From positions 1-64,000 of IMG/VR virus record IMGVR_UViG_3300027969_003010: 64,000 nt of DNA. One strand, given 5' to 3'. Numbering within the stretch: position 1 is the first letter of the stretch; each line of letters opens with the position of its first letter. This DNA comes from a virus. This document shows positions 1,472 to 21,900 of the stretch, one piece after another. A program made the translations under genes and the position numbers. Under the pieces are notes generated by a model, which was not told the DNA's origin, searched no databases, and saw only the letters and a program-made list of their open reading frames with translations.

Positions 1472-2311
1472 ATGAGAAGTCATTATTGGACATGCAGTAA
1501 GTTTGCAGATTGGGTTCGTGGCACTGCCAAGCTCAGCGCAGGTACGAGTGAAGAGTGGGACGACTGGACTACCGCCGCACAAATGAAACACAACTTTCGT
1601 TATTGGCTAGCGGAAGAAGGAATTGACTATGTTCAAAAATTTGTTTACTACATACCGGATAAATTAAATGATGTACGCTATTATATTAATAATCGCTGGG
1701 TTAGCCACAGCCATGCTCTTACCGCCCATCCTCGCGACATACAGCCGGGTAATTGGAGCGATGTTGGCAATCGCTTTCTTCCTTGTATGTTCAATGAGCT
1801 TGTGGACTTTGTGGAAATAGAACAAGCATGGCATCACTGCATGTGGAGTGACGACGCCAAAACAGAATATGAAGTGCCTTGGTGGCGTAGTGGTTGGCTA
1901 CGTTTGCGTACATGGCGTAATGCCAAAGCTGGCATGGAATATCTAAAGTGGGCAAGTGAACTTAAAGTGGACGAGAACATGGGGTCCAATCCTGATGAAA
2001 AAGGATACGGTGAGCCGACTTATCAGGCCAAGGCCGCTAAGGAAATTATTGAACTTTACACTTGGTGGACGGTTACCTATCGCAACCGTCCAGATCCTTA
2101 TGACGCAAGTGGCTGGAGTGCTTATTGTGATGCTATGCGAGTAAAGTATCCAGGCAGTTTCTTTTCCAGCTTAAACAGCAAGGATGCTGAAGATCGTAAA
2201 GCCAGCGACAAAGCACACAAACTGCTTACTAAGATTGAAAAGGCTTATGAAGCAGAAGACGAAGCTATGATGATTCGTCTTATCAAAATTAGACAAAGCC
2301 TTTGGACCTAA
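1472..2311 (+). CDS. conserved-type phage protein, function unknown
   Basis: 279 residues, rich in tryptophan and aromatic residues (for example MWSDD, PWWRSGWLRLRTW, YTWWTVTYRNRPDPYD). Mostly alpha-helical character, no signal peptide or membrane segment, no catalytic motif I can name. The start has AAGGAATT eight bases upstream. The C-terminus is charged and helical (KAHKLLTKIEKAYEAEDEAMMIRLIKIRQSLW is summarised here as a coiled segment near 245-279). The stop codon overlaps the ATG of the first radical SAM gene by one base (TAATG), which places it at the head of that operon. Function is not inferable. Confidence 0.75.
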   Translation: MRSHYWTCSKFADWVRGTAKLSAGTSEEWDDWTTAAQMKHNFRYWLAEEGIDYVQKFVYYIPDKLNDVRYYINNRWVSHSHALTAHPRDIQPGNWSDVGNRFLPCMFNELVDFVEIEQAWHHCMWSDDAKTEYEVPWWRSGWLRLRTWRNAKAGMEYLKWASELKVDENMGSNPDEKGYGEPTYQAKAAKEIIELYTWWTVTYRNRPDPYDASGWSAYCDAMRVKYPGSFFSSLNSKDAEDRKASDKAHKLLTKIEKAYEAEDEAMMIRLIKIRQSLWT

Positions 2312-3711
2312 TGAAGGGCGATGAAGTAACTAACATAAACGGCCGATTCGAATCAAAATACTTAAATGATTCTGAGTCGGTCTTTTCTGCCCTTAACGAA
2401 GTCAGCCCTAGCTTTTGTCTTGCCAAGTGGTACAATGTAAGCATACACATACCCACAGGCCGCACACACAGTTGTTATCATCCGCCTACACATCAGATTC
2501 CCTTAAAGGAAATTGCTATAGATGTGTCGGCACTACACAATACCCGGTATAAAAAGAATCAGCGTAAACTCATGCTCAAAGGTGAGCGGCCTATCGAGTG
2601 CGGATTTTGCTGGCAAATTGAAGATAGTGGCACACAGTTAAGCGACAGAGCTTATCGTAGCAAGGATGTGTATGAGCCAGGACTTATTGAAGAAGCACTG
2701 ACTATAGAGAACCCTAATCCACGCTATGTGGAGGTAAACTTTAATCAAGCCTGTAACTTGAAATGTAGTTACTGCTCTCCGCATCTAAGTACAGAGTGGA
2801 ACAAAGAAATAGACCGGCACGGTGCGTATCAATTAGCAGACGGCAAAACACATAACGACACACAATGGATGCGTAACCAAAATATGGTTCCTAACAACAG
2901 TTTAGACAATCCATACTTGCTAGCATTTTGGGAATGGTTGCCACAAATATATCCAACGCTACACACCTTCCGTATGACCGGTGGTGAGCCCTTGATGGAT
3001 AAGAATACATTCCGAATGTTTGATTATGTTAAAGAACACCCAAGTGAAAAGTTACATTTGAGCATTACATCAAACTGTTGCCCGCCTAAAGGGCAATGGG
3101 ACAAGTTCATGACCAGTTTGAAAGAGATTACAGACAATGATGCTATCAATCATTTTATGTTGTTCTGTAGTTTAGACTCTTGGGGCGCTCAAGCGGAGTA
3201 TATTCGTAACGGATTAGACTTTTGTACGCTATATACCAACGTAACTGACTATTTGAAGAACAGTAGCAAACACAGTCTTACATTTATTATCACATTCAAC
3301 GCCTTAAGCTATACAGGCTTTGTTAAGTATATTAAGAACATACATAAATTAAGACAAGAATACAATACAGATAGACAACTTGTTTGGTTTGATATTCCTA
3401 TGTTGAATGACCCTATGTGGTTGAATCCTAAACTGCTACCAGAGATGGTTACAGAGTTAGAACATGCTATGGAGTTTATGAAAGCAAATGAAGAAAGTGA
3501 ACACAATCGCTTTAAAGGATTTAAAGATTTTGAAATTAGCAAAGTGCAACGCTTAATTGATTGGGTTAAGAATGACAGCAAGTTTGACAGAGCCACAGCA
3601 ATGAAAAACTTTTACCTATTCTTTAGCCAGCACGATGAACGCAGGGGAACAAGTTTTTTAAATACATTCCCTGAACTAACAGACTTTTGGAACACTTGTG
3701 AAAAAACATAA
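2311..3711 (+). CDS. radical SAM protein with N-terminal twitch-like cluster domain (copy 1)
   Basis: Radical SAM enzymes cleave S-adenosylmethionine to start radical chemistry. Starting at the ATG that overlaps the upstream stop (466 residues), the SAM-cluster motif CNLKCSYC lies near residues 148-155 and the SAM-binding motif TGGEP near 226. Before the core sits a second cysteine set: FCLAKW (near 36), SCYHPP (near 55) and ECGFCW (near 97-100), the pattern of a twitch/SPASM-like auxiliary iron-sulfur site, here N-terminal. C-terminal signature FFSQHDERRGTSF recurs in copies 2-3. A TTG 9 bases upstream is a less likely start. First of four tandem paralogues; the product is unknown. Confidence 0.88.
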   Translation: MKGDEVTNINGRFESKYLNDSESVFSALNEVSPSFCLAKWYNVSIHIPTGRTHSCYHPPTHQIPLKEIAIDVSALHNTRYKKNQRKLMLKGERPIECGFCWQIEDSGTQLSDRAYRSKDVYEPGLIEEALTIENPNPRYVEVNFNQACNLKCSYCSPHLSTEWNKEIDRHGAYQLADGKTHNDTQWMRNQNMVPNNSLDNPYLLAFWEWLPQIYPTLHTFRMTGGEPLMDKNTFRMFDYVKEHPSEKLHLSITSNCCPPKGQWDKFMTSLKEITDNDAINHFMLFCSLDSWGAQAEYIRNGLDFCTLYTNVTDYLKNSSKHSLTFIITFNALSYTGFVKYIKNIHKLRQEYNTDRQLVWFDIPMLNDPMWLNPKLLPEMVTELEHAMEFMKANEESEHNRFKGFKDFEISKVQRLIDWVKNDSKFDRATAMKNFYLFFSQHDERRGTSFLNTFPELTDFWNTCEKT

Positions 3712-5047
3712 CGAAACAGATTTAGATTATAAAAAGCGTTTAATAGATCGTATTAGTCCTACATATTGTGGTGCCAAATGGTACAACGCTACAATCTGGC
3801 TTGGATCAGGCCGCACAACGTCTTGCCATCACCCACCTGCGCACCAAGCAGATGTACAAGTAATTAAATTTAATCCTAAAGCAATACATAATACTCCTCA
3901 GAAAAAAGAGGATAGACGTATGATGCTGGCTGGTGAACGACCTCCCGGTTGCGAATACTGCTGGAAGATTGAAGACATGGGTACTGACAAAGTAAGTGAC
4001 CGTGTTTACAAAACTATGACCTACGATGACGAATCTAATTTATTGGCCGCACAAACACCTGTAGATCAAGATGTAGATTTGCAAACTCTTGAGATAGCAT
4101 TTGACCGTACTTGTCAGTTTGCCTGTAGTTATTGTAATCCGGCGTTTAGTACTACGTGGGTTAAAGATATTAAGAAAAACGGACCTTATGAAAAGTTAAC
4201 TACAGACGGACGTGGACACTTTATTCATATTCATGAAAAAGATCAACTGTATGACTTTCACGAAACGAATCCATACGTTGAAGCGTTCTTTGCATGGTGG
4301 GAAACAGACTTGCATCGTACTCTTAAAGAGTTACGTATTACTGGTGGTGAGCCATTAATGAGCGGCCATACTTGGAAGTTGTTTGATTGGTTTAAATCTA
4401 ATCAAGGCAAAAGTTCTGCACAGTTGGCTATTAACAGTAACTTAGGTTTTGACCGTAGTGTAGTACAGCGTATGCTAGACAGCACAGAAGGTGTTAAGAT
4501 GATGCTGTACACTAGCAATGAAGCATTTGGCCCACAGGCTGAATACATTCGCGATGGGCTAGATTGGAATCAGTGGTTAGATAACGTTGAATTTTTATTA
4601 GATAGTAAGCGTATGCCAGTTGTGCTTATGTGTACCATAAATGCATTATGCTTAGATAGTCTGGATGTATTCTTAGACAAAATGATGACTTGGAAAGAAA
4701 AGTATGGACGTCATCAGCTTATGTTAAGTCTTAATATTCTAAGGTTTCCTAGTTTCCAAGGACCATTAGTATTGCCAGAAGAGTTACGTCAGCATTATAA
4801 ACAACGGCTGTCTGCTTGGTACGATAGAAATAAAGATAACCGTAATTTAAACGAGTTTGAAAAAAACAATGTCGAGCGTTTGTTAGATTATCTCGATATT
4901 GTTAAGACTCCGCACGGCGAAGGGTTTGTAAGAGAAAGTGCAGAAAAAGATTTTAAAAACTTTTATGAGCAATATGATGTACGTAGAGGCAAGAACTTTA
5001 GAACAACATTTAGTCCAACACTAGTTGAGTGGTATGAATCTATTTAA
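3698..5047 (+). CDS. radical SAM protein with N-terminal twitch-like cluster domain (copy 2)
   Basis: 449 residues from a GTG that overlaps the previous gene by 14 bases. Core cluster motif CQFACSYC at residues 139-146; TGGEPLM near 217. Auxiliary cysteines C24 (YCGAKWYN), C43 (SCHHPPAHQ), C85 and C88 (GCEYCW) are spaced as in copy 1. The conserved IHNTPQK and MLAGERPP blocks lie between. C-terminal signature FYEQYDVRRGKNFRTTF matches copies 1 and 3. The protein aligns end to end with its neighbours, so tandem duplication and divergence is the simplest history. No substrate-binding feature identifies the target; a peptide or carbohydrate substrate is possible. Confidence 0.88.
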   Translation: MKKHNETDLDYKKRLIDRISPTYCGAKWYNATIWLGSGRTTSCHHPPAHQADVQVIKFNPKAIHNTPQKKEDRRMMLAGERPPGCEYCWKIEDMGTDKVSDRVYKTMTYDDESNLLAAQTPVDQDVDLQTLEIAFDRTCQFACSYCNPAFSTTWVKDIKKNGPYEKLTTDGRGHFIHIHEKDQLYDFHETNPYVEAFFAWWETDLHRTLKELRITGGEPLMSGHTWKLFDWFKSNQGKSSAQLAINSNLGFDRSVVQRMLDSTEGVKMMLYTSNEAFGPQAEYIRDGLDWNQWLDNVEFLLDSKRMPVVLMCTINALCLDSLDVFLDKMMTWKEKYGRHQLMLSLNILRFPSFQGPLVLPEELRQHYKQRLSAWYDRNKDNRNLNEFEKNNVERLLDYLDIVKTPHGEGFVRESAEKDFKNFYEQYDVRRGKNFRTTFSPTLVEWYESI

Positions 5048-6359
5048 TTGGTTTAAGCCTACCGATCCTACTAAAAAGTACATATACTTTAAAGAAGAAA
5101 AAATGGATCCTATTAGTCCTTCGTACTGCGGAGCAAAGTGGTACGAAGGAACAATATGGTTGTATCAAGGATCTACTGCTAACTGTCATCATAACCCGTT
5201 TCATAAAATTACATTAGATCCTGCTAACCCTAGCAGTATATACAACACTCCTCAAAAAATAGAGGAACGTGCTAGTATGCTCAAAGGAGGTAAGCCCGAT
5301 GGATGTAGTTATTGTTGGGCTACGGAAAATGCTGGGCAGATTAGCGACAGGATTATTAAAACATCGGGTATTAATAAAAAACAAATAGCCAATAGAGCGT
5401 TATCTTCAATCCCTCAAATTTTAGAAATAGCATTTGAAAGGACTTGTAATCTTGCCTGTGCATATTGCGGGCCACATTTCAGTAGCAAATGGGCCACTGA
5501 TATTAAACGTAACGGACCGTATGTTGGATTGATATCTGATAGTAGATACACTACTGATTCAGGAAAAGATATTATAGATCCAAATAATAATCCATATGTA
5601 GATGCGTTCTTTGCTTGGTGGCCAGAGATAGAATCTGAACTACCTGTTTTAAAAATTACAGGCGGCGAACCTTTAATGAGTCCTAGTTTTTGGAAGTTTT
5701 TAGATTTACTTAATGTTACTAAAAAGTTTAAAGGGACATTAAAAATCAATACTAATCTGATAAACCATAAAGACGAAATTGAACGTCTTATAAACAAAAC
5801 TAAAGGTTTTAAAGTTCGTATGCATACTAGCATGGAAAGTAGTTTATCGCAATCTGAGTATGTTAGGGACGGGTTTGATAAGGACAACTGGTTATCTAAC
5901 GTAGAAAAGATTCTTTCAACTACCGACATGATTGTAATTATAAGTACTAGTATTAATAACCTTGCAGTATGGAGTTTTATTGACTACTTAAATTTAATAA
6001 CAGAGTTAAAGATCAAATACGGCAAAAAGCGTGTTATTACCAACTGTAACTTTGTACATTATCCTGTGTTCATGCGTGTACAAATGATACCGCAGGAACT
6101 GCGTCAGCCAATTGCCAACGAAGTATCTGTATGGTATGATGCTAATCGTAAACGACTCGATAGTACCGAGCAAGGATACATTGTTAGATTTATTAATACA
6201 TTGAATGATGCACCTTGTAGTTTAGAAAACACACATCATACTATGGAAGATGCGCATAAGGATTTAAAGAATTTTATTGCGCAGTATGATCAACGGAGAA
6301 ATAAAAATTTTAGAAAAGTCCTGGATCCAAGATTTGTGGCGTGGCATGACACAATCTAA
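5034..6359 (+). CDS. radical SAM protein with N-terminal twitch-like cluster domain (copy 3)
   Basis: 441 residues from an ATG 14 bases inside the previous gene; an in-frame TTG at 5025 is a weaker alternative. Auxiliary cysteines in YCGAKWYEG (C32), NCHHNPFHK and GCSYCW; core cluster CNLACAYC near residue 141; TGGEPLMS near 211. C-terminal FIAQYDQRRNKNFRKVL matches copies 1 and 2. It is closest in layout to copy 2. The N-terminus carries about 20 extra residues before the first cysteine. All expected iron-sulfur ligands are present, so it should be catalytically competent rather than a decayed duplicate. Confidence 0.87.
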   Translation: MNLFNWFKPTDPTKKYIYFKEEKMDPISPSYCGAKWYEGTIWLYQGSTANCHHNPFHKITLDPANPSSIYNTPQKIEERASMLKGGKPDGCSYCWATENAGQISDRIIKTSGINKKQIANRALSSIPQILEIAFERTCNLACAYCGPHFSSKWATDIKRNGPYVGLISDSRYTTDSGKDIIDPNNNPYVDAFFAWWPEIESELPVLKITGGEPLMSPSFWKFLDLLNVTKKFKGTLKINTNLINHKDEIERLINKTKGFKVRMHTSMESSLSQSEYVRDGFDKDNWLSNVEKILSTTDMIVIISTSINNLAVWSFIDYLNLITELKIKYGKKRVITNCNFVHYPVFMRVQMIPQELRQPIANEVSVWYDANRKRLDSTEQGYIVRFINTLNDAPCSLENTHHTMEDAHKDLKNFIAQYDQRRNKNFRKVLDPRFVAWHDTI

Positions 6360-7551
6360 TAATTGGTACTGTAAATTGCCCTGGACTGGATTTAGTAATG
6401 ATCCAGACGGGAAAGCACGGCCGTGTTGTCTATATAAAGATTATATTAAAGACGACGCTGGTAAAATTATGTATGTACAAACTAGTACAGTCAGAGAAAT
6501 ATTTACTAGCAACTACATGAAAAATCTACGTCAGGATTTTAGAGACGGAAAACAACCCGCGGCATGTAGTACTTGTATTATAGATGAACAGAATAATTAC
6601 ACTAGTAAACGTCAACGCTATAACGACCAGTACAATAAAGAAATGCCTGTTAATTTTGACAAAGAGCCAGAGTTTCCTGTTGAATATCAAATGATACTAA
6701 GCAATGCTTGTAACTTAAAGTGCCGTAGCTGTACACCAAGTCACAGTAGTTTGTGGCAAGCCGAGCATAAAGTTATATGGGGTAATACTGGATACAGTAT
6801 GCCTGAAGGCCAAAGTGGAGAGAACGACAGCGTACTATGGCATAAACGAGATGAGTGGTTGCCTAGCGTACAACGTTTAGAGATTGTAGGCGGCGAACCA
6901 TTTTACATTAATCGTTGGAAGTTGCTGTGGGAAGAACTAATTGCAAAGGGACTTAGTAAAAAAGTCAATATGGATATTAGTTCTAACGGAACAATCTATG
7001 CCGGTGAAGTCGTTGAGAAATTAGTTAATAATTTTAGAAGTATTGGGCTAGGTTTGAGTATAGATGGCATGGGTCCGTTATACGAATATTTGAGACATCC
7101 AGGCAAGTGGGACGAGGTAGAAACTAATATAAAACAGTACCACGAACTACGCAAACAACTGGACACTAAAAGTTTTAGAGTAAGTATTAGCCACACGATA
7201 GGCTGGCTTAATGCATGGGAGCTTCCTGAGTTCCATACTTATATTAAAACACAAGCGCCGCTATTTGTAATATGGAACAATATTATACATTACCCGCAAC
7301 ATATGGCCATTTATATGATTCCTGCAAGTTTAAAACAACGTATAGAAGCTAAGTGGAGAGCATATGATTGGGGCACATATACCAACGACATAGAAGGTAT
7401 CATAACTTATATGAATAGTCAACAACCTACTGATGTAGAAATACGCAAAGCATACGAAACATTTAAAACACACGATGCAGTACGTAATGAAAACTTGTTA
7501 GACGTTATACCGGCAGAAATTATAGACGAGATTAAACCCTACTATGAATAA
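6346..7551 (+). CDS. radical SAM protein with twitch-like domain (divergent copy 4)
   Basis: 401 residues from the ATG that overlaps the previous gene by 14 bases; a longer frame reaches 6277 but lies wholly within copy 3. Auxiliary cysteines: C9 (YCKLPW), C27-C28 (RPCCLY) and CSTC near 74; core cluster CNLKCRSC at 122-129; the SAM motif is VGGEPFY rather than TGGEPLM. This arrangement (FCxxPW, PCC, CxxC, then CxxxCxxC) is that of the widespread phage twitch-domain radical SAM family, whereas copies 1-3 form a separate subgroup with CHHPP in place of PCC. The C-terminal FKTHDAVRNENLLDVIP is a relic of the shared signature. Product unknown. Confidence 0.88.
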   Translation: MTQSNNWYCKLPWTGFSNDPDGKARPCCLYKDYIKDDAGKIMYVQTSTVREIFTSNYMKNLRQDFRDGKQPAACSTCIIDEQNNYTSKRQRYNDQYNKEMPVNFDKEPEFPVEYQMILSNACNLKCRSCTPSHSSLWQAEHKVIWGNTGYSMPEGQSGENDSVLWHKRDEWLPSVQRLEIVGGEPFYINRWKLLWEELIAKGLSKKVNMDISSNGTIYAGEVVEKLVNNFRSIGLGLSIDGMGPLYEYLRHPGKWDEVETNIKQYHELRKQLDTKSFRVSISHTIGWLNAWELPEFHTYIKTQAPLFVIWNNIIHYPQHMAIYMIPASLKQRIEAKWRAYDWGTYTNDIEGIITYMNSQQPTDVEIRKAYETFKTHDAVRNENLLDVIPAEIIDEIKPYYE

Positions 7552-8074
7552 GATTTGGATATTTGGTGATAGCTTTGCTTCAAGCAAACATAGTTACGCT
7601 TGGACGTCACTATTAGCTGACCGCGGTACAGTTATCAACCAAGCATCTAATGGCAGTAGTGAATACAGAATTTGGAAGAAGTATCACGCAAATAAACAAT
7701 TAATTACAGATAATGATATTGTAATTTTTTGTCATACTTCTCCAAGCAGAATATTTTTAAAAGATAATTCATCACTTCTGAGTCGCATGTTACCTAGCCA
7801 TCCGTTGTGCGATTTAATTGTTAATGATATATTTGCCAAACAAGAAAATCGTTTTATTAAGATCCTTAAGGAAATTTGGGACGATGAATACTTCCAAGAT
7901 ACGTTTGATATGCTAGTATCCAATTTAAAATCAGTTCCAAACAGTATACATTTAAATTTTTTTGAAGCAGGTGTATGCAATACTGCATGGAAAGATTTTC
8001 CTGGCGAGATAAACCATTTAAATATAACTGGCAATCAATTAGTATTTCAACATATAGTTAAACAATTACCATGA
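7544..8074 (+). CDS. SGNH/GDSL-type hydrolase
   Basis: 176 residues. Block I IFGDSFASS (residues 5-13) carries the nucleophile serine, block II/III is represented by the NQASNGSSEYRIW stretch near 33, and the C-terminal NHLNITGNQ supplies the histidine of the Dx(x)H block. These are the SGNH fold hallmarks; members deacylate lipids or deacetylate sugars and peptidoglycan. It starts 8 bases before the stop of the fourth radical SAM gene and ends overlapping the next by 4 bases (ATGA), so it is part of the same translational unit. No signal peptide, hence a cytoplasmic substrate such as a biosynthetic intermediate is likely. Confidence 0.75.
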   Translation: MNKIWIFGDSFASSKHSYAWTSLLADRGTVINQASNGSSEYRIWKKYHANKQLITDNDIVIFCHTSPSRIFLKDNSSLLSRMLPSHPLCDLIVNDIFAKQENRFIKILKEIWDDEYFQDTFDMLVSNLKSVPNSIHLNFFEAGVCNTAWKDFPGEINHLNITGNQLVFQHIVKQLP

Positions 8075-8790
8075 GAATAGTTGCATTTGGAAGCAGTCAT
8101 ACTACAGGATATAACTTAGATGACTTTAAAAATTTAACAGCTAATGCGGTAAGCAAGTACGCTTTCCCCCAAGTCGTTGCGGATATGTTTAAATGCGAGT
8201 GTTTAAATTTAGGCAAAAACGGTAACGGAATAGATCAGATATACACAGATGTATTTGGGTATCTAGGTCAGCATCAACCTACAGACTTTGTTATAATACA
8301 ATTACCATCTAATCCCACATGGTTTAAATTGATAACATCCGATGACGATTCAATTAGTATCATCAATCCAGATAGTTTAGACTTTAAAAATCGTAAATTT
8401 CAAAATGCCTTACAACAATATTACGGACTGCTAACTGGTAATAACCACTGGCACCGATTGTGGTATATAAATTTTTATAGTCTAATTAATTTATTACATT
8501 CAAGAAACATTAAATTTGTATGGTTCTTTGATTCATTTTGCGATCCGTGGGGTAGAATAGATTTGATGATTTCCAGACTTCCTAAAGATGTGCAACACGA
8601 AGTACACAATCTAAAAAATGCAAGTCCAGATCCTGCTACTACTCACATTGACAAATTATTTGCTGAGCATTTGTCTAAAAATATACCAAATAGTTTAAAA
8701 CCTTGCGGACATTATGATCAAACTGGACATCGTTTCTGGGCTGAAAATGTTTTAATACCATACATACAAGAGAGATTAACACATGACTAA
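8071..8790 (+). CDS. SGNH-like protein with GSS block I
   Basis: 239 residues. VAFGSSHTTGY (residues 4-14) occupies the SGNH block I position but the usual GDS is GSS; CLNLGKNGNGIDQIY near 45 resembles the block II/III oxyanion region, DFVIIQLPSN near 75 the central strand, and GHYDQTGHRFWAE near 213 the terminal D/H block. The GSS form is common in distant phage and bacterial members, so it may be active or a binding protein. It overlaps both neighbours (4 and 8 bases) and follows directly another SGNH-type gene, suggesting two related but distinct steps such as acyl transfer and removal. Confidence 0.65.
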   Translation: MRIVAFGSSHTTGYNLDDFKNLTANAVSKYAFPQVVADMFKCECLNLGKNGNGIDQIYTDVFGYLGQHQPTDFVIIQLPSNPTWFKLITSDDDSISIINPDSLDFKNRKFQNALQQYYGLLTGNNHWHRLWYINFYSLINLLHSRNIKFVWFFDSFCDPWGRIDLMISRLPKDVQHEVHNLKNASPDPATTHIDKLFAEHLSKNIPNSLKPCGHYDQTGHRFWAENVLIPYIQERLTHD

Positions 8791-10021
8791 AGTAGCAATG
8801 ATTGGCTTAGGTAAATTAGGTTTGCCGTGTGCTGAAGTTATGGCTAAGTTTTATGACGTTTCAGGCTACGATATAAATCTAGTTGACCCAACTATGACTG
8901 TAGCTATTAAACCTTCGATTGAGGCCGCAGTGGCTGATAGAGATTTTATCTTTGTAGCAGTACCAACACCGCACGATCCAATGTACGGAGGTAGTAAACC
9001 TATTGCAGGATTGCCAAGTAAAGATTTTGATTACAGTATTGTGCAGGAAGTATTAACTGAAATTAATAAACATGTTACACACGAACAGTTAGTAGTATTA
9101 ATCAGTACAGTATTGCCAGGTACAGTTCGCGCACATTTGCGTCCATGTATTACAAATGCACGATTCATTTACAATCCATACTTGATTGCCATGGGTAGCG
9201 TTAAATGGGACATGGTTAATCCAGAGTGTTTAATTGTTGGTACAGAAGATGGCAATTGGACTGACGATGCTATGGCTATTGTTAACTTCTACAAACCTAT
9301 GATGGAAAGAGATGACACAAGAGTTAACATTGGTACATGGGATGAAGCAGAAGCTATTAAAGTATTTTACAACACGTTTATCTCTGCTAAGATTGGTCTA
9401 GTAAATATGATTCAAGACGTTGCAGAAAAGAACGGCAACATAAATGTAGATGTAGTAACAGATGCTCTTAAAGCCGCAACACAGCGCATTACAGGCCCAC
9501 GTTACTTAACGGCAGGCATGGGCGATGCTGGTGCTTGCCATCCTCGAGATAACATTGCCTTGCGATTCCTTGCAGAACGTTTAGATTTAGGCTACGATTT
9601 GTTTGAAGCTATCATGCACAGTAGAGACCAGCAAGCAAAGAATATGGCTCTTAAACTTGTTAAACTTGCTAAGGAGCATAACTTACCAGTCGTTATACAC
9701 GGTCGTGCATACAAGCCGTATGTTGAGTATACAGTTGGTAGTTATAGCGAGCTAGTTGGACACTTTGTAGAAGAAGCAGGCATTAGTATACAATATGCAG
9801 ATCCTTTAACCGGAGATAAAGTCAAAGATGGAACGGTAGCTGTTATCTTAGTAGCTCACGATCCGGCAATAACTTATGCTGGAACAGGCGTAGAAATAAA
9901 AGATGATGCGTTCTATTTTGAATTTGGAGCAGGTAGTGTTGTATTAGACCCATGGCGAACTATAAATGATGTAGCTGGATGTACCGTTGTGCATTACGGT
10001 AATACAAGGATTAAATTATGA
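8783..10021 (+). CDS. nucleotide-sugar 6-dehydrogenase (UDP-Glc/GDP-Man family)
   Basis: 412 residues, usual length for UDP-glucose/GDP-mannose dehydrogenases, which oxidise an NDP-sugar to the uronic acid with two NAD+. The N-terminal Rossmann motif GLGKLGLPCAEVMA is at residues 8-21, FVAVPTPHD near 55, STVLPGT near 112, and the catalytic cysteine lies in GACHPRDNIAL near 252, corresponding to the family GGxCxPKDxxAL. The C-terminal half carries HGRAYKPYVEYTVGS, equivalent to the family GxxFKxxxxDxRxS segment. It provides a uronic acid precursor to the following tailoring genes. A second, truncated family member occurs at the end of the window. Confidence 0.88.
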   Translation: MTKVAMIGLGKLGLPCAEVMAKFYDVSGYDINLVDPTMTVAIKPSIEAAVADRDFIFVAVPTPHDPMYGGSKPIAGLPSKDFDYSIVQEVLTEINKHVTHEQLVVLISTVLPGTVRAHLRPCITNARFIYNPYLIAMGSVKWDMVNPECLIVGTEDGNWTDDAMAIVNFYKPMMERDDTRVNIGTWDEAEAIKVFYNTFISAKIGLVNMIQDVAEKNGNINVDVVTDALKAATQRITGPRYLTAGMGDAGACHPRDNIALRFLAERLDLGYDLFEAIMHSRDQQAKNMALKLVKLAKEHNLPVVIHGRAYKPYVEYTVGSYSELVGHFVEEAGISIQYADPLTGDKVKDGTVAVILVAHDPAITYAGTGVEIKDDAFYFEFGAGSVVLDPWRTINDVAGCTVVHYGNTRIKL

Positions 10022-10521
10022 AATGGTATACTGGCCGTATAGACCCATTCTGGGGAACTAAACATAGAGATCTAGAATATCGCCGTGGTAGATATAATAA
10101 TCTTAAAGATTTAGAAACATGGGAACAGCTAGGTCTTAAACTCAATGCGGCAGGCGGCGATGTATATGATATGAAAAATATTATGCCTGAATGGGCTAAT
10201 CCGTTTTTTACACTATTCAAAGGTATAAATGTTGGTATAAGTTTTTTTAGAATGAATACAGGCGATATACTTCCTACACATCAGGATACATACGAAGTAT
10301 ATCGTAAAGTTAACAACATTATTGACCCGTCAACAATTAACAGAGCCATAATATTTTTAGAAGATTGGCGACCCGGGCATATTTTTGAAATAGCAGGAAG
10401 TCCAATAACTAGTTGGAAGGCTGGAGATTATGTTGTGTGGAATTATGATGTTGCACACATGGCGGCAAATTTGGGAATACAACCAAGATACACCATGCAA
10501 ATAACTTTTACAAATGTTTGA
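10018..10521 (+). CDS. 2-oxoglutarate/Fe(II)-type oxygenase-like protein
   Basis: 167 residues. The double-stranded beta-helix metal triad pattern is visible: H88 and D90 in PTHQDTY, H147 in YDVAHMAANLG, with R157 in PRYTMQI ten residues later in the position of the 2-oxoglutarate carboxylate ligand. The intervening strands (RAIIFLEDWRPGHIFEI, ITSWKAGDYVVWNY) fit aspartyl/prolyl-hydroxylase-like phage proteins. Expected chemistry is oxidative hydroxylation of a sugar, nucleotide or peptide. ATGA overlap with the dehydrogenase upstream and an 8-base overlap with the aminotransferase downstream. Family assignment is by motif spacing only. Confidence 0.68.
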   Translation: MKWYTGRIDPFWGTKHRDLEYRRGRYNNLKDLETWEQLGLKLNAAGGDVYDMKNIMPEWANPFFTLFKGINVGISFFRMNTGDILPTHQDTYEVYRKVNNIIDPSTINRAIIFLEDWRPGHIFEIAGSPITSWKAGDYVVWNYDVAHMAANLGIQPRYTMQITFTNV

Positions 10522-11104
10522 TACAGTAACAAAATTTGAAAGCGCAATAGCAGAGTTCTACGGAGCTCCGTATGCTGTTGCCACTGACTGTTGTACCCAT
10601 GCTATTGAGCTATGCTTACGACTGACTAAACCATCCAATGTTGCCTGTCCAAAGAATACGTACCTAAGTGTTCCTATGACGTTTGCAAAATTAGGAATAG
10701 ATTGGCAATTCATAGATCTACAATGGCAAAATTATTATTATCTTACTAATACAAATATTATCGATGCCGCTGTATACTGGCAAGCTGGTGGATTTCAAAA
10801 AGGATACTTTAACTGTCTAAGTTTTCAATTTAAAAAACATTTAAATTTAGGTCGAGGCGGAATGATACTAACTGACGACAAAGAAGCCGCAATACAATTA
10901 AAAAAGATGAGCTACGACGGACGTACTCCTAGCATGCCGTGGATGGATCAAGATGTTGACACGCTGGGTTATCATTATTATATGACTCCCGAAACAGCCC
11001 AACTTGGGTTAGATAAATTAGAGCAAGCTAAAAATACACAGTCACGTAACTGGACTTATCAGGATTATCCAGACATTTCAACTATGAAGGTGTTCAATGT
11101 TTAG
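10514..11104 (+). CDS. short DegT/DnrJ/EryC1/StrS-type aminotransferase
   Basis: PLP-dependent transfer of an amino group, usually to a keto-sugar or cyclitol. Family landmarks are in order: GAPYAVATDCCTHAIEL (residues 17-33), the DAAxxWQAG segment near 84 equivalent to the EDAAHA aspartate that contacts PLP, and SFQFKKHLNLGRGGMILTDD with K108 at the Schiff-base lysine. YYMTPETAQLGLDKLEQ near 152 matches the conserved NYRMxxxxAAxGxxQL block. At 196 residues it ends right after this block, while typical members have about 370, so the C-terminal small domain is missing. No frameshift partner is seen; the next gene is a different family. Confidence 0.75.
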   Translation: MFDTVTKFESAIAEFYGAPYAVATDCCTHAIELCLRLTKPSNVACPKNTYLSVPMTFAKLGIDWQFIDLQWQNYYYLTNTNIIDAAVYWQAGGFQKGYFNCLSFQFKKHLNLGRGGMILTDDKEAAIQLKKMSYDGRTPSMPWMDQDVDTLGYHYYMTPETAQLGLDKLEQAKNTQSRNWTYQDYPDISTMKVFNV

Positions 11105-12065
11105 TAAGAATGAATGGGATCCACTTAAAAAAGTAATAGTAGGTGTTGCAGACTATGCAACAATACCTCCATTAGATATTAGTTTACGTACTGTTAATTA
11201 CGCAGATGTTAAAGACACAACTGTAATCAAATCAGGGCAATATCCAAAGCAGGTTATTGACGAAGCTAATGAAGACTTAGAAACACTTGCTAATTTTTTA
11301 AAAGGTTGTGGGGTAGAAGTTTTACGTCCTACGCCTGGGCCTGTGGAATACTACAACTATTGTCCTAGAGATACAACAATTGTTTATAAAGATAACGCTA
11401 TTGTTGCGCCCATGACTATTAAGGCTAGACGCAACGAATATCAGCATTATGCACAGCATTTAACGAACATTCATACAGTACCAAACTACCAAGGCGATGA
11501 CATTTATAATTTAGAATGTTTAGGAAATAAGGATACATTAGCATTACATAATACACATCCTAAATTTGATGCGGCAAATGTAATAAGGGCCAACGATGAT
11601 CTATTGTATCTTGTTTCAAATACCGGTAACAAGTTAGGCGCACAATATTTGCAAGAGCTGTTGAATGTCAAAGTACACACGTTAGAAAATGTATACAGTT
11701 ATATACATATTGACAGTACTATTGCATTTTTACGTGAAGGATTAATGTTATTAAATTCAAGTAGGATCAAAGACGTAAACGTATTGCCAGAGCCGTTTAG
11801 AAGTTGGGACTATATCATGTGCCCAGAACCTATTGATATTGGACATTACCCAGGGTACTGTAATGCTAGCACCTGGATAAATGTAAATTTACTAAGTGTA
11901 AATCCAAACTTAGTTATATTAGAAGAACATCAGCATAATTTAAGAATAGAATTAGAAAAGAAAAATATAGATTGTGCAATGCTACCCATGCGACATGCTC
12001 GTACATTGGGCGGATGTTTTCATTGTGTAACATTGGATCTGGTTAGAGATCATGCAAATCATTAA
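11097..12065 (+). CDS. amidinotransferase (glycine/inosamine amidinotransferase family)
   Basis: 322 residues. Family transfers an amidino group from arginine to an amine, forming a guanidino compound, through a cysteine adduct. The N-terminal EWDPLKKVIVG is typical; CPRDTTIV (near 108) gives the conserved PRD; HIDSTIAFL places H204 and D206 as catalytic pair; GGCFHCVTLD places the nucleophile at C310. These match arginine:glycine and StrB-type amidinotransferases. It overlaps the aminotransferase gene by 8 bases, the same functional pairing as in streptidine biosynthesis, so the aminated product upstream is the likely acceptor. An arginine deiminase-like activity is the main alternative. Confidence 0.82.
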   Translation: MFSKNEWDPLKKVIVGVADYATIPPLDISLRTVNYADVKDTTVIKSGQYPKQVIDEANEDLETLANFLKGCGVEVLRPTPGPVEYYNYCPRDTTIVYKDNAIVAPMTIKARRNEYQHYAQHLTNIHTVPNYQGDDIYNLECLGNKDTLALHNTHPKFDAANVIRANDDLLYLVSNTGNKLGAQYLQELLNVKVHTLENVYSYIHIDSTIAFLREGLMLLNSSRIKDVNVLPEPFRSWDYIMCPEPIDIGHYPGYCNASTWINVNLLSVNPNLVILEEHQHNLRIELEKKNIDCAMLPMRHARTLGGCFHCVTLDLVRDHANH

Positions 12066-13314
12066 TAAACTAAAAAATTTATTGCCTGGTCGTGTCCCGG
12101 CAAATGATTTTCAACGAGAATTATTATGGGGCAATCTTCCATTTATAGAAGATAATCATGCATACTTAAAATATGTAATGAAAAAATGTTTTTTTGCAAA
12201 ATTCAAATATCCTTATATATTGTATACCTTTCATAGTAGGATTCTAGAGTTAGAAGAATTTACATTAGATCAAAGGCAATTAGATGCATTAAAAAATCAA
12301 ACACTATACATTTTTTTGTACGAACCTATTTCATTTTTTGTAGATAAATTTAATAGAGGATTCTATAGCGAATTTACTAGTGATATAGATCTTAACATGT
12401 TAAAGTCATATGAGTTAGATAGTGTAGAAATTTTTGCAAAGAAATATAATTTAAACATAGTCGTCTGCACTTGCGAATACGAAATAGAATTGCTACAACC
12501 TCAATATAAACATTTTAAACTGGTGTGTTTTGATTCTTTTATAAGACGTGGACAACGACAGCGTCCTAATCCAATACAACACTTGTTTCCAAATTTATCT
12601 AAAATTAACAAAAAGTTTTGGTCAGGTAATTGGCGCTATACATTGCACAGACATATCATAATGTCGTATCTTACTAATTTCGAAGGTAATTACAGTTGGC
12701 ATTTTAATGCTAACCCTGATAATATAGAACATAACGAATGGTTCAATGTTAAAATAATTCCCCAACATCTTTACGAAAAATTAAAAATTGGATCAAACAA
12801 ATTACTAACTACTAATTATTCCATTGATCACGGAACCTTACAAGTTGAAGCTAACGAATTGAATCGAGCATACAAACCTGGAGACCATCCTCACACAGGT
12901 AATGACAACAAACTTTGGGAATCATACGATCAATCGTTCTGTGCTATTGTAACAGAAACTCGATTTGCCCAACCGTTTGCTAACTTTAGCGAAAAAACAC
13001 TTTTAGCAATTCGAGCCCAGATTCCATTTATTGTTGTTGCTCCGCCTAAAACTTTAGAGTACATTAAACAGTTTGGATTTAAAACGTTTGACAAATGGTG
13101 GGATGAAAGTTACGATCAGGAGCAGGATCACGCAAAAAGAATGATTAAGATTTTGAATTTGATTGAGCATATTAGTTCAAAACCCTTAGAGGAACTAATC
13201 AAAATTCGAAAAGAAATGAAGTATGTACTCAAACATAACTATAAAATCAACCAAAAAATACAATACAATACGACATATAAGTTGACAAACGGGTCCGATA
13301 GTGTTATACTATAG
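12052..13314 (+). CDS. possible glycosyltransferase-like phage protein
   Basis: 420 residues, no membrane segment. The C-terminal third contains SEKTLLAIRAQIPFIVVAPP (residues 313-332), followed by LEYIKQFGFKTFDKWWDESYD, a combination recurrent in phage proteins associated with sugar-modifying clusters and reminiscent of the nucleotide-sugar-binding half of GT-B enzymes (an EKT/acidic region followed by GF..F..WWDESYD). The N-terminal two thirds shows no motif I recognise. It overlaps the amidinotransferase gene by 14 bases and closes the operon. Attaching the finished sugar to an acceptor is a reasonable but unproven role. Confidence 0.5.
   Translation: MQIINKLKNLLPGRVPANDFQRELLWGNLPFIEDNHAYLKYVMKKCFFAKFKYPYILYTFHSRILELEEFTLDQRQLDALKNQTLYIFLYEPISFFVDKFNRGFYSEFTSDIDLNMLKSYELDSVEIFAKKYNLNIVVCTCEYEIELLQPQYKHFKLVCFDSFIRRGQRQRPNPIQHLFPNLSKINKKFWSGNWRYTLHRHIIMSYLTNFEGNYSWHFNANPDNIEHNEWFNVKIIPQHLYEKLKIGSNKLLTTNYSIDHGTLQVEANELNRAYKPGDHPHTGNDNKLWESYDQSFCAIVTETRFAQPFANFSEKTLLAIRAQIPFIVVAPPKTLEYIKQFGFKTFDKWWDESYDQEQDHAKRMIKILNLIEHISSKPLEELIKIRKEMKYVLKHNYKINQKIQYNTTYKLTNGSDSVIL
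13282..13310 (+). promoter_or_regulatory. sigma-70-type promoter for the 13341 gene
   Basis: Exact TTGACA at 13282-13287, 17-base spacer, TATACT at 13305-13310. It lies in the last codons of the possible glycosyltransferase gene and 30 bases before the next ATG, which has AGGAG upstream. This is an early-type host-polymerase promoter. Confidence 0.85.
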
Positions 13315-16229: not shown

Positions 16230-16712
16230 ATGGCAAAATTTTACTCAACAAAAACTTACGGTAACGACAGAGGCTTATCCTGCTGTTTTAGACAATGGCG
16301 TAGCACACACAGCCATTGCTCATTACTGCACGGATATTCAATTGGTATCAAACTCATATTTGAATGTGATACACTGGACGACAAAAACTGGTGTATGGAC
16401 TTTGGTGGACTTAAAGGATTTAAAGAGTGGGCAGATCATATGTTTGATCATACTTTGGTAGTTGCCCAAGATGATCCTCAACTAGAAATGTTCAAGCAAA
16501 TGGCTAGTTTAGGTTTGCAGGATCAAAGCGGAGTGTGTGATTTACGCATTGTACCTGCTGTAGGCTGTGAAATGTTTGCCAAACTTGCTTTTGACAAAAT
16601 GGCTGAACTATTGTCTGCGGGAAATATGACCTATCCAATCAATCCAACAGTTAGGATCAAATCAGTTGAAGTATTTGAACACGGAGCCAACTCGGCCATC
16701 TACGAAAGCTAA
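16230..16712 (+). CDS. queD: 6-pyruvoyltetrahydropterin synthase/QueD family protein
   Basis: 160 residues. Family members convert 7,8-dihydroneopterin triphosphate to 6-carboxy-tetrahydropterin on the way to preQ0 and queuosine/7-deazaguanine. THSHCSLLHGYS (residues 26-37) holds the cysteine and histidines; canonical enzymes have HGH for zinc and here it is HGY, so one ligand is altered. DFGGLKGF, FDHTLVVAQDD and VEVFEHGANSAIY are the other conserved blocks. A phage copy could feed tRNA queuosine or 7-deazaguanine DNA modification, but no other deazaguanine gene (QueC, QueE by clear identity, or DpdA) is recognised in the window; the radical SAM genes here are not QueE-like in length. Confidence 0.85.
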   Translation: MAKFYSTKTYGNDRGLSCCFRQWRSTHSHCSLLHGYSIGIKLIFECDTLDDKNWCMDFGGLKGFKEWADHMFDHTLVVAQDDPQLEMFKQMASLGLQDQSGVCDLRIVPAVGCEMFAKLAFDKMAELLSAGNMTYPINPTVRIKSVEVFEHGANSAIYES

Positions 16713-16863
16713 ACTTTGGCGCATTTGGGCTAAGGCTTTAGGAGAAAAATCAGGCAGTTCGGACGAGGAATCGGACCGAATTGCTTGCATTCGTACTGTA
16801 ATTGTGTTAATATATGTTATCACAAACTTTTTTATAATCGCAGGCGTCATAAGGCATTGGTAA
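16666..16863 (+). CDS. small membrane protein
   Basis: Up to 65 residues. A charged N-terminal half (KAKLWRIWAKALGEKSGSSD) is followed by one transmembrane helix, IRTVIVLIYVITNFFIIAG. The combination of a WRxWAKALGEK amphipathic stretch and this TM resembles small proteins of marine T4-like phages. No ATG is available: TTG at 16666 or 16675, both inside the end of queD, are the candidates, and GGATC lies before the first. Its stop overlaps the uvdE ATG by one base, supporting translation. Function unknown. Confidence 0.6.
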   Translation: MKYLNTEPTRPSTKAKLWRIWAKALGEKSGSSDEESDRIACIRTVIVLIYVITNFFIIAGVIRHW

Positions 16864-17891
16864 TGGGCAAAATAGGCTTCGCATGTAAATGGATCGACCA
16901 TCCTGATCAAGTAAACGGCATCAAGAAAGACGACGGTGCTAAACAATACAACACTGGTACAACTACCATAAGTTGGTTAAATAGACAGTCGAAAGACGTA
17001 GCAGAGCAAAAGCTCTGGGATCTAATGGTCCAAAATCTAGCGGCTACACAAAAACTTGTAGACCGTGTGGGAGAACTCAATGAAAATCTTAGGATGGTTC
17101 GCCTTAGTAGCGACATTCTTCCTGCTTATACCCAGCCTGATTGGAGTTATTTTTGGCGCCGCCCTGACGTTGTCAGCTATCTTGAGCGCAATTTTAGCCT
17201 TATTGGTCTTAGTGCTCGTACAAGCAATACCCGTCTTTCTATGCATCCTGGCCAGTTTGTTGTTCTTGCTAGTATTAACGAAGGTATTGTTGGGAGAAGT
17301 ATAGAAGAATTTGAATATCATGCTGACATGGCTCGTTACATGGGCTACGGCAAGAAATTCCAAGACTTTAAAATTAACGTACATATCAGTGGCAAACTAG
17401 GCCCTGATGGTATTCGTGAAGCTTATAAGAAATTAAGCAACGAAGCACGTAACTGTATTACAATTGAAAATGAAGAAAACTCATGGGGTCTAGATGACTG
17501 TTTATCTATTAGCGATATCGTTCCTATTGTGCTCGATATTCACCATCATTGGATTCGCGAAGGGGAATATATCCTTCCAACAGACAATCGTGTTAAGCGT
17601 GTCCTGGATAGTTGGCGTGGTCTGCGCCCTACTATGCATTATTCAGTTAGTCGTGAAGATTACCTTGTGGGCCATGACCAACTTATCGCACCTGTTCATG
17701 CCCAACTACTTCTAGATGGGTATAAGAAACAAAAGCTGAGGGCACACAGCGACTTTTATTGGAATCAAAAAACAAACGAATGGGCAATAACTTTTCTAAA
17801 CCAGTTCGACATAATGTGCGAAAGCAAGGGCAAAAACCTCGCCAGCATGGAACTGTACAATCAAGCCAAAAGCTATCTCGAGAACAACTAA
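16863..17891 (+). CDS. uvsE: UV damage endonuclease UvdE
   Basis: 342 residues from the ATG overlapping the upstream TAA; the frame extends further 5' but those codons lie in the preceding gene. UvdE nicks DNA 5' of cyclobutane dimers and 6-4 photoproducts. The TIM-barrel family markers are present: IGFACKW at the start, ARTSNTRLSMHPGQFVVL near 119, ENEENSW near 205, DIHHHW near 228, and HAHSDFYW-like RAHSDFYW near 304, supplying metal-binding His, Glu and Asp. It gives light-independent photoproduct repair, sensible for a phage of sunlit waters. Confidence 0.88.
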   Translation: MGKIGFACKWIDHPDQVNGIKKDDGAKQYNTGTTTISWLNRQSKDVAEQKLWDLMVQNLAATQKLVDRVGELNENLRMVRLSSDILPAYTQPDWSYFWRRPDVVSYLERNFSLIGLSARTSNTRLSMHPGQFVVLASINEGIVGRSIEEFEYHADMARYMGYGKKFQDFKINVHISGKLGPDGIREAYKKLSNEARNCITIENEENSWGLDDCLSISDIVPIVLDIHHHWIREGEYILPTDNRVKRVLDSWRGLRPTMHYSVSREDYLVGHDQLIAPVHAQLLLDGYKKQKLRAHSDFYWNQKTNEWAITFLNQFDIMCESKGKNLASMELYNQAKSYLENN

Positions 17892-18602: not shown

Positions 18603-18620
18603 TTGTATCGAGGGCACACT

Positions 18621-18944
18621 GTGATTACAATTTCTGATTCAGCAAAAACAAAGATTAAAGATTTACTGTACGAAGAAGGTAATCCTAACTTGGCATTACG
18701 CACTTTTGTACAAGGCGGGGGCTGTAGCGGATTTAGCTATGGATTTACCTTTGACGAAATTACAAACGAAGACGATTTTGAAATACCCTTAGACGAATTT
18801 AAAGTACTTGTAGACAGTATGAGTATGACATATCTGCAAGGTGCAGAAATAGATTACAAAGAAGAACTCATGGGCAGTTCTTTTACAATTAAAAACCCAA
18901 ATGCAAGTACTACTTGCGGATGCGGTTCTAGCTTCGGAGTTTAA
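18621..18944 (+). CDS. A-type iron-sulfur carrier (IscA/ErpA/HesB family)
   Basis: 107 residues from GTG 18621; a TTG at 18603 in frame is discounted because it overlaps the promoter and family proteins begin with [11 protein letters not shown] as here. The three conserved cysteines are present: [11 protein letters not shown] near residue 35 and TCGCGSSFG at the C-terminus. Such proteins deliver [2Fe-2S]/[4Fe-4S] clusters to apo-enzymes. In this genome an obvious clientele is the four radical SAM enzymes, each with two cluster sites, although the gene sits in the late virion block. Stop is 5 bases before the giant gene. Confidence 0.88.
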
Positions 18945-18949
18945 TAAAC

Positions 18950-21900
18950 ATGGCACGTCAAGAAATAGACATTGGTATACAAGGTAATGACGGAACAGGC
19001 GATAGTATTCGTGACTCGTTCCGTAAGGTTAATGATAACTTTGCTGAGATTTATGCAGTTTTTGGATCTGGAGGTACAATTCCATTTACAGCATTAAGTG
19101 ATGCGCCAAGCTCTTATACTGCTAATCAAATATTCATTACAAACAGTTCTGGTACAGGAATTCTTGCTAAGACACTTGCACGTCGTGGTGGAGTAACTTT
19201 TGACGAATCTGTAGCCGGTGTATTAACTATTGTTGGTACTCAAAGTAACTTGGCCGCAGACCCAGCGCCACGTTTAAACGGGCCGCTAAACGTTAATAAT
19301 CTAGCTATTGGTAACATTCCTGATCCAAGCGACACACTAGTTGCATCATTTAATTCAACCTATTCAAGCCTTGGTATTACTACTACTATTGATAAACTTG
19401 CAATTAGCAAAGGATATGCCGATACCCACTACGTGGGCAAGGGTGACGGCAACGTTGTAGTAGGTGCGTTAAAATTACGTGACGAGCCACTAACTCCTGA
19501 ATTAACAGATTCAGCTTATGATGCAACATTGAGCAGTAACTACCTAAGTAACGAAGCATTGCCACGTAAATCAGTTGTTTATCGCGGTGGTGATACCATG
19601 CTAGGTAAACTTACACTAAGCGATCACCCTGCTCCGGTAGCAGGATTTGGTACACCTAACAGTGCTGATGATAAACAGGCCGCTACAAAATTTTATGTTG
19701 ATAACGAAGTATTTGTCAGCTCAACAAACTTGTATGTTCGTACAGACGGCGATGATACACAATTAAAAACACCTCCTGGCCGTGAAGGTCGCAACTGGGC
19801 ACACGCCTATAAGACCATTGGAGCGGCCGCTTTACAAGCTGAAACTTTACAAAATCTTGCAAATTTAGAACCTGGACCTTATCGTCAGAAAATTGCATAT
19901 ACTATTAGCCCTAATACGTTTAATTCTACTATTTCTACAGTAACTCGATCTGGTGGAAATACTGGTATTGCTGGGTATGAAGATGCGGCTTTTTTGCTTG
20001 GTGCTAACAAAGCATTTATTCAATCGGAAACTATTGCTTACATTAACAACAAATATGTTAACATATTCACATATGACCAAGCAAAGTGTCAGCGCGATGT
20101 ACAAATTATTTTAAATGCTGTTGCTACTGACCTTGTTATTAGCTCCAACTTTAATAGTTTGCAAGCCGCTACTTCTTACTTTGAAAGTCAAGCGGCAAGT
20201 GTTATAAACAGTCAATTAGTTCAAACTATTGACGGTATTAACTATGCTAGAGATCAAGTGCTGGCCTTTGCATATAATTCATCAGGACTTACTACATATC
20301 TTAACACTGTAATCGATGCATTAAACTATGATATGACTTTGAATTCTAACTATCAAAGTACTGTTGCCGCTCGATATTTTCCTTATGCAAACACTGGGTT
20401 AAGTGTTACTGAAATAGTAGGAGCATTTGGACAGCTTAAATTAGAACTAGCTAATATTGCTAAGAATAACGGACTTACTGTTGATTTAGCAGTAACTCGA
20501 TTTAATAATTTACTAAACAGTATGATTATTATAGTCCAAGGCGGAATTGAACCAACTATTAATATGTCAGCAACTAGTGTATCTAGTACTGCTAAACAAA
20601 GTGCTAGAACACTATTATTAAACAATATTGCATTTGTACAAGCTGAAATTATTGCATGGTTAGCCGCAAACTATCCTAAACTTGCATATAGTCAAACTAC
20701 TTGTAAGCGCGATGTTAAGTATATTATAGAGGCGGTGGCATACGATCAACTATATGGAGGAAATAGTCGTACTGTCTATGCTGGACAACGTTATTGGGCT
20801 AATGCTGTAAGACAAATTGCCTATAGTGAATTAGCCGCTACTAAGGGTGCCTATGGATATTTAAAAACATTATTACAAGCAGTCATCAGTAATAATAGTC
20901 CATCGCAAGTCTATCAAAATAGTGTTATTCAGTATCAAAATCAAACCTACACTGGTGGCAGTGGGCAGATTGCAACTGTTTCTAATTTAATATCATTAAT
21001 AGCAGGAACAACTATTGCTACAGCATCGACAAACTCTAGTACTGGAATTTCCACTACTAGTACGTCTAACCTTACTGTTGGAATGCCTGTCATTATTGAT
21101 AACTCTACTCCAATCACAGTTACCGGATTCCAAACTAAATCAGGTTCAGGTCCATACTTAGTAACCTTGATAATACCAACACAATTAACTGCTCCAATAG
21201 CTGGTACATCGTTTACTGTTAGTGGTAATGTAACTACTGGTTATAACGGCATAGTTACAGTTTTCAGTGCTACAACAACTTCTATAACATTAAGTTATTC
21301 AGCTAATCCAGGTTCATGGGGCGGCGGCACAACTATTATTACTCCATATTTTGGAGGTCTTATTGCTGGCGGAACTTACTACGTTATAGAAATTACAAAT
21401 GCTACTCAATTTAAATTAAGTACAAGTCTTGGCGGTACCGCGGCAACATTAACTAATGCATTAGTTTATACAAATATAACATGGAATGGATTACTAACTG
21501 CTAATACTCCTCCTGCAATTACTCCTCCAACTTATTCTGCTGGTGCAAGTCCATTGCCAACAGTGTACACTAATGTGAATAATAATAAAGGAACTGCAAC
21601 TACTGGTCCAATTTTTAATGTAATTACATTTGTTAATAACACATATCCATACATTAACAATGCTCCTGCAATTGCACAACTTACAACTTTATTTAAATTT
21701 GTTACTGATACGCTTTCTGGTGGTTTATCAAATAGAGAACTGGTATCGTTAACTAAGCCAACTTCTACATCTACATCGGCATTTAGTGCTAGTAAATTAC
21801 TTTTAGCTAACCGTGAATTTATTGCGGCGGAAACATTAGGGTGGATTAAACAGAATTATAATTCGTTAACTTATGTTGCTACCGATGGACAAATACAATG

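Follow-up and report, generated by a model that had tools for sequence, protein, structure and literature searches.

What does a tailed phage make with an uninterrupted run of eleven genes in which four radical S-adenosylmethionine (SAM) enzymes and two SGNH-like proteins stand beside a set of putative sugar enzymes? The question is raised by the operon at positions 2311 to 13314 (+ strand) of the 64,000-nucleotide stretch of DNA analyzed here (the window), part of the 70,855-base IMG/VR virus record IMGVR_UViG_3300027969_003010, itself a fragment of the genome of an uncultured tailed phage. On balance, we lean toward a translationally coupled phage glycan operon for the synthesis and attachment of a guanidino sugar. 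This reading builds on gene content, coupling, conserved linkage, intact active-site residues, and the predicted fold of the aminotransferase, from which we infer substrate, reaction order, product, and acceptor.

The 11 open reading frames are all intact, with zero internal stops, and follow one another stop to start without a gap, as the initial annotation had noticed. Counting the junction with the upstream gene (1472..2311, +), the overlaps measure, in order, 1, 14, 14, 14, 8, 4, 8, 4, 8, 8, and 14 nucleotides (nt). Overlap thus occurs at 11 of 11 junctions, compared to 10 of the 37 consecutive plus-strand junctions elsewhere in the window, and its presence at every junction is special to this stretch. 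Since the stop of the upstream gene overlaps the first operon gene by 1 nt, that gene is coupled too and the coupled unit comprises 12 genes; it had zero matches in Pfam and PHROG searches, and BLAST found homologs in 8 loci, the window's own copy counted. The next gene after the operon, at 13341, is separated by a gap. Coordinates below run from the likely start of each gene.

The amidinotransferase (AMT; 11097..12065, +) matches StrB (1bwd, 2e-59), which is also its nearest solved structure. Profile comparison favors StrB (4.7e-84) over glycine amidinotransferase (4.7e-57) by ~89 bits, and the active-site Asp, Asp, His, and Cys (D92, D158, H204, and C310) are present in 40/40 sequences and align with 1bwd and 1jdw. 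By sequence, AMT therefore appears to be of the StrB type, an assignment that does not imply the inosamine-phosphate substrate of StrB. The preceding gene (10514..11104, +) encodes an aminotransferase (AT) of 196 amino acids (aa) that belongs to the DegT/DnrJ/EryC1/StrS family (PF01041, 1.8e-21; 77.2 bits for a cut-off of 19.8 bits) and keeps the pyridoxal phosphate lysine; K108 and D84 are invariant in 73 homologs. Its structural model (predicted local distance difference test, pLDDT, 96.5) has GDP-perosamine synthase as top fold match (1.1e-10), with template modeling (TM) scores of the fold matches reaching 0.65 to 0.77 by query and 0.34 to 0.41 by target. The initial assignment as a StrS-type aminotransferase holds for the family but not for the size: full-length enzymes have ~360 to 390 residues including a C-terminal domain, and the best-matching stretch of this half-size AT (mini-AT) stops at position 244 of a 360-position profile.

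Upstream of AT lie an NDP-sugar 6-dehydrogenase (UDH; 8783..10021, +) and a small Asp/Arg-hydroxylase-like Fe/2-oxoglutarate (2OG) oxygenase (OX; 10018..10521, +). UDH exceeds both Pfam cut-offs of the UDP-glucose/GDP-mannose dehydrogenases (PF00984, 4e-16; PF03721, 6e-15), matches phrog_9148 (3e-88), and keeps the GxGxxG motif, Lys193 (KVFYNTF), and the catalytic Cys in GACHPRD; it stays below the cut-off of the TIGR03026 subfamily (143.4 versus 189.8 bits). OX falls short of the PF05118 gathering score (0.0011; 19.3 versus 22.6 bits), but the HxD...H triad (H88, D90, and H147) is invariant and the 2OG-binding Arg (R157) nearly invariant in 27 sequences. The last operon gene (12052..13314, +) encodes a probable GT-B-type glycosyltransferase (GT) whose model has a predicted TM score of 0.86; Pfam and PHROG searches found no sequence family for it, and tblastn of the phage collection gave zero matches. 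In 12 relatives (e.g., loci L031, L034, and L065), the GT and UDH matches fall on a single open reading frame, an apparent fusion.

The first four operon genes (all +) encode radical SAM enzymes with an N-terminal twitch domain, namely rS1 (2311..3711, ATG; NF033640, 1.5e-91), rS2 (3698..5047, GTG start; 1.1e-86), rS3 (5034..6359; 5e-75; ATG at 5034 preferred to TTG at 5025), and rS4 (6346..7551; 6.5e-88; ATG at 6346 preferred to TTG at 6277). Each carries CxxxCxxC and GGEP and scores 253 to 308 bits for a curated NF033640 cut-off of 170 bits. Seven cysteines (C24, C43, C85, C88, C139, C143, and C146 in rS2 numbering), which include CxxxCxxC and the N-terminal auxiliary-cluster cysteines kept by all four enzymes, are invariant across 40 sequences. 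In a profile of these 40 sequences, the N-terminal part matches the twitch domain that BtrN carries at its C-terminus (9e-6), and the core matches viperin, SkfB, and sulfatase-maturating enzymes. Between rS4 and UDH, SGNH-like protein 1 (SG1; 7544..8074, +) is recognized by motifs only (GDS at residue 8 and an NHLNITG block), with zero matches in family-profile searches, and SG2 (8071..8790, +), with GSS and GHYDQTGH, remains below the PF13472 cut-off (0.0037; 18.2 versus 32.9 bits) and shows weak profile similarity to SGNH-like families in relatives. A possible role of SG1 is acyl transfer or de-acylation.

Altogether, the four radical SAM enzymes, the NDP-sugar dehydrogenase, and the amidinotransferase named in the initial annotation are borne out, and the 2OG-type oxygenase is supported by its conserved residues despite its subthreshold score; the two SGNH-like hydrolases keep their motifs but score below the family cut-offs. 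Weak and implausible Pfam matches to Ferritin on GT, PHA-1 on rS3, and Amidohydro_1 on UDH were set aside.

Conserved linkage was assessed by bait searches of IMG/VR with AMT (135 relatives, 80 kept), AT (532 relatives, 79 kept), OX (79 new loci), and GT (79 new loci). Because the bait loci are related by descent and some contigs turn up in more than one scan, the counts measure linkage and not independent events. The half-size AT is present in 78 of the 80 AMT-bait loci, AT or AMT or both in 78/79 OX-bait loci, and AT or AMT in 58/79 GT-bait loci. The genes are thus linked rather than scattered, their active sites are intact, and the core order recurs in many environmental phages: around OX, the order is UDH-OX-AMT in 30 loci, OX-AT-AMT-GT (as in the window) in 11, and AT-AMT-OX-GT in 4, along with smaller patterns. 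Linkage and gene orders together define UDH-OX-AT-AMT-GT as the core module. Among isolated phages, Synechococcus phage S-SCSM2R carries AT (55%), OX (28%), and AMT (64%) among glycosyltransferases.

The operon as a single eleven-gene unit fares less well. The core is conserved, but the full set was not found in any other locus of the bait searches, and among the loci from the OX and GT baits, BLAST found no homolog of SG1 or SG2. Radical SAM genes of the window's types are rare in OX-bait loci (2 to 6 of 79), and radical SAM genes of some kind stand alongside the mini-AT in 69/77 AMT-type loci versus 3/25 loci with a GDP-mannose 4,6-dehydratase (GMD; Fisher 8e-13, the loci not being independent). 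The radical SAM genes are frequent companions of the core and not part of one conserved eleven-gene block. A B12-binding radical SAM protein of ~746 aa, absent from the window's operon, lies immediately 5' of 41 AT copies (e.g., L065:7197-9437).

Which substrate AT might use is suggested by its cellular relatives. Searches of bacterial and archaeal genomes located mini-ATs at 16 loci, most of them 53 to 60% identical to the window's AT. In Marinimicrobia, Prochlorococcus, alphaproteobacteria, and Chitinophagaceae, the protein belongs to a cassette made up, in order, of a WbuC-like cupin, a methyltransferase, the mini-AT, and GMD (e.g., L170:9041-11556 and L171:6053-8730 for the first two groups). 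In one Marinimicrobia genome, the cassette lies within an apparent polysaccharide locus. The association with GMD supports a keto-sugar substrate for the mini-AT. In the phages, the 79 AT-bait loci include 36 with AMT and 30 with a GMD signature, with 0 carrying both, and in the tree, phage ATs associated with GMD cluster in a single group (92/97) among the AMT-associated ATs. Distant AMT homologs were detected in three of 11 mini-AT-bearing genomes searched. At two loci (L172 and L184), contigs binned into a Neomarinimicrobiota metagenome-assembled genome bear a phage-type cluster (radical SAM, AT, SGNH, UDH, and GT) and may come from a large phage that was misbinned. For the window, a GDP-perosamine route like that of the cellular cassettes was considered and rejected, with a GMD signature in 0/80 AMT-bait loci and none in the record; generic short-chain dehydrogenase/reductase genes occur in 21/25 larger records, and none matched strongly enough for a confident GMD call. 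The lack of GMD, the radical SAM genes in 69/77 AMT-type loci, and the BtrN-type twitch domain together suggest that radical SAM enzymes may replace the dehydratase as the source of the ketone.

We propose the following sequence of events: (i) UDH would oxidize an NDP-hexose to the uronic acid; (ii) at least one twitch radical SAM enzyme would form a sugar ketone by dehydrogenation or dehydration, as BtrN acts on an aminocyclitol; (iii) the half-size AT would convert the ketone to an amine; (iv) AMT would transfer an amidino group from arginine to this amine, giving a cationic guanidino sugar; (v) OX would hydroxylate the product, and the SGNH proteins may add or remove acyl groups; and (vi) the GT-B-type protein would move the sugar to its acceptor. 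The most likely acceptor would be an envelope glycan of the host, either O-antigen or another, in line with the proposal for the pelagimyophage glycan islands (PMC7029224), and such a modification would change receptor or charge during infection. Virion fibers would be an alternative acceptor, and a tail-fiber-like gene at 14629, downstream of the operon, makes a virion target possible as well. The wider idea that phages run their own streptidine-like sugar pathway, with a cationic guanidino sugar decorating the surface of the infected cell or the virion, is put forward tentatively.

Several points, in addition to the shared ancestry of the bait loci, weigh against a guanidino-sugar operon. 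AT is shorter than known sugar aminotransferases, whose C-terminal part it lacks, and its activity is not certain. No GMD was found in the record. The 30 UDH-OX-AMT loci are without a detected mini-AT, so that the amidino acceptor need not derive from this enzyme. The NF033640 family carries no assigned reaction, and its profile matches also include peptide-modifying enzymes. Finally, the possible glycosyltransferase of the initial annotation gains GT-B-type fold matches but zero sequence family, and those matches are weak (EarP, 7.6e-4; MurG, 2.3e-3; TM 0.2 to 0.3). The three-gene UDH-OX-AMT cassette is illustrated by L225 to L232 (e.g., L229:6764-9411 and L232:6752-9406), on contigs of up to 343 kb; in L229, an ATP-pyrophosphatase-like gene is followed by a second AMT-like gene.

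These uncertainties about the radical SAM enzymes leave some room, in our opinion rather little, for two modules within one operon, in which UDH-OX-AT-AMT-GT would act on a glycan and rS1 to rS4 would independently modify a protein or peptide, e.g., a tail fiber. NF033640 relatives match the peptide-modifying families SkfB, PapB, YhhB, and WgkB, the window's radical SAM types are rare around OX, and both OX-AT-AMT-GT and UDH-OX-AMT occur on their own. Such a division is at odds with the radical SAM gene that accompanies the great majority of AMT-type mini-AT loci (69/77) and with the translational coupling of all eleven window genes. That the operon makes a diffusible small molecule, of an aminocyclitol or aminoglycoside-like kind, instead of part of a polymer seems improbable to us. 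The relatives lie among several glycosyltransferases, the cellular mini-ATs belong to sugar cassettes, one within an apparent polysaccharide locus, and no cyclitol synthase was noticed, no search having been aimed at one, even though the combination of a DegT aminotransferase, a StrB amidinotransferase, and BtrN-like twitch radical SAM enzymes parallels streptidine and butirosin biosynthesis.

Hypermodification of phage DNA, a target entertained in the initial annotation, can hardly be the function of the operon. Known DNA-modification pathways include radical SAM, aminotransferase, and glycosyltransferase genes, gene types that the operon shares, and a 6-pyruvoyl-tetrahydropterin synthase/QueD-like gene lies at 16230-16712. 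However, searches whose positive controls were detected found no thymidylate synthase/hydroxymethylase, QueC, or TGT/DpdA family gene in the 70.9-kb record, itself a fragment, and the AMT and AT relatives are linked to glycan genes. It is likewise very improbable that AMT and its companions serve auxiliary amino acid metabolism (glycine amidinotransferase, creatine/arginine), as KEGG-based annotation has it and as in one survey that assigns a viral amidinotransferase to K00613, within glycine and arginine metabolism (PMC8226683). The profile scores given above, on which we rejected AMT as a creatine/arginine gene, favor StrB, and the constant neighbors of AMT are sugar enzymes. Of the unusual glycan or small molecule initially envisaged, a glycan made through a coupled operon has the best support, while DNA as its target is left without support.

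Outside the operon, the record encodes a T4-type gp9/10 baseplate protein, a DNA polymerase, virion structural genes, and a clamp loader nearest to that of the jumbo Pseudomonas phage PA5oct group (52%); a DNA-level search of the phage collection gave zero matches. An A-type Fe-S cluster carrier (18603..18944, +; PF01521, 9.5e-20) could supply the rS enzymes. A UvdE-type UV endonuclease is encoded at 16785-17891, and a 4610-residue protein with zero Pfam matches (18950-32782) lies between the carrier and the gp9/10-like gene.

If our proposal is true, phage glycan chemistry would come to include cationic guanidino sugars, a group known chiefly from aminoglycoside antibiotics, and such a sugar could alter receptor binding, superinfection exclusion, or sensitivity to cationic peptides. 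The operon would also provide a DegT aminotransferase of very small size. Correction may further be needed in catalogues of viral auxiliary genes, where genes of similar kinds are entered singly under amino acid, porphyrin, or amino-sugar metabolism (PMC8226683). The idea is testable now in the cultivated phage S-SCSM2R, in which AT, OX, and AMT are present.

Among known systems, the streptidine branch of streptomycin biosynthesis shares the logic of ketone to amine to guanidine, with AMT nearest to StrB and AT of the DegT/StrS class; here, in contrast, the genes are those of a phage, AT is half-size, the neighbors are UDH, OX, GT, and radical SAM genes, and there is no evidence for a cyclitol substrate. 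Butirosin biosynthesis (BtrN/BtrS) likewise unites a BtrN-type twitch domain with a DegT aminotransferase, but this domain is C-terminal in BtrN and N-terminal in rS1 to rS4, which are four tandem paralogs. GDP-perosamine synthase and the cellular mini-AT cassette provide the best sequence and fold match for AT, which differs from the synthase by its missing C-terminal part, and GMD and AMT are mutually exclusive partners of the mini-AT within 10 kb.

Among phages, the initial remark that the combination matches no described phage pathway holds for the core module, which appears undescribed, but not for the pairing of radical SAM genes with an amidinotransferase. In Campylobacter phages CP220 and CPt10, Timms et al. 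(2010) reported an exchangeable cassette that groups five radical SAM genes with an amidinotransferase (PMC2853527), the latter distantly related to AMT (~23%). The other window genes were not seen in that cassette, for which the authors proposed a role in host metabolic fitness and no glycan. In a survey of Chlorobium viruses, glycine amidinotransferase, perosamine synthetase, and bchE appear as separate entries (PMC8226683). Nishimura et al. (2017) described a marine T4-like genome that has 12 radical SAM genes as well as an A-type Fe-S carrier (PMC5332604), a pattern that the window resembles with its carrier on the same strand as rS1 to rS4 and downstream of them. No paper describing an AT-AMT-OX module or a half-size aminotransferase was found in literature searched without most subscription journals; core module and half-size AT thus appear undescribed, and decoration with a guanidino sugar, if true, would be a phage glycan modification not described in that literature. 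Phage glycan islands as such are already known. The variable region of pelagimyophages combines glycosyltransferases, UDP-glucose dehydrogenase, and radical SAM cassettes, for which O-chain modification was proposed (PMC7029224), and the glycan/lipopolysaccharide islands of marine T4-like phages (pelagimyophages, HTVC008M, and Bellamy) hold the same kinds of genes, with UDH 47 to 60% identical. In HTVC008M and Bellamy, carbamoyltransferase and NadE-like neighbors take the place of the AT-AMT-OX core. The operon is thus real, conserved, and of the glycan type, a variant of these phage islands with a probable guanidino-sugar core.

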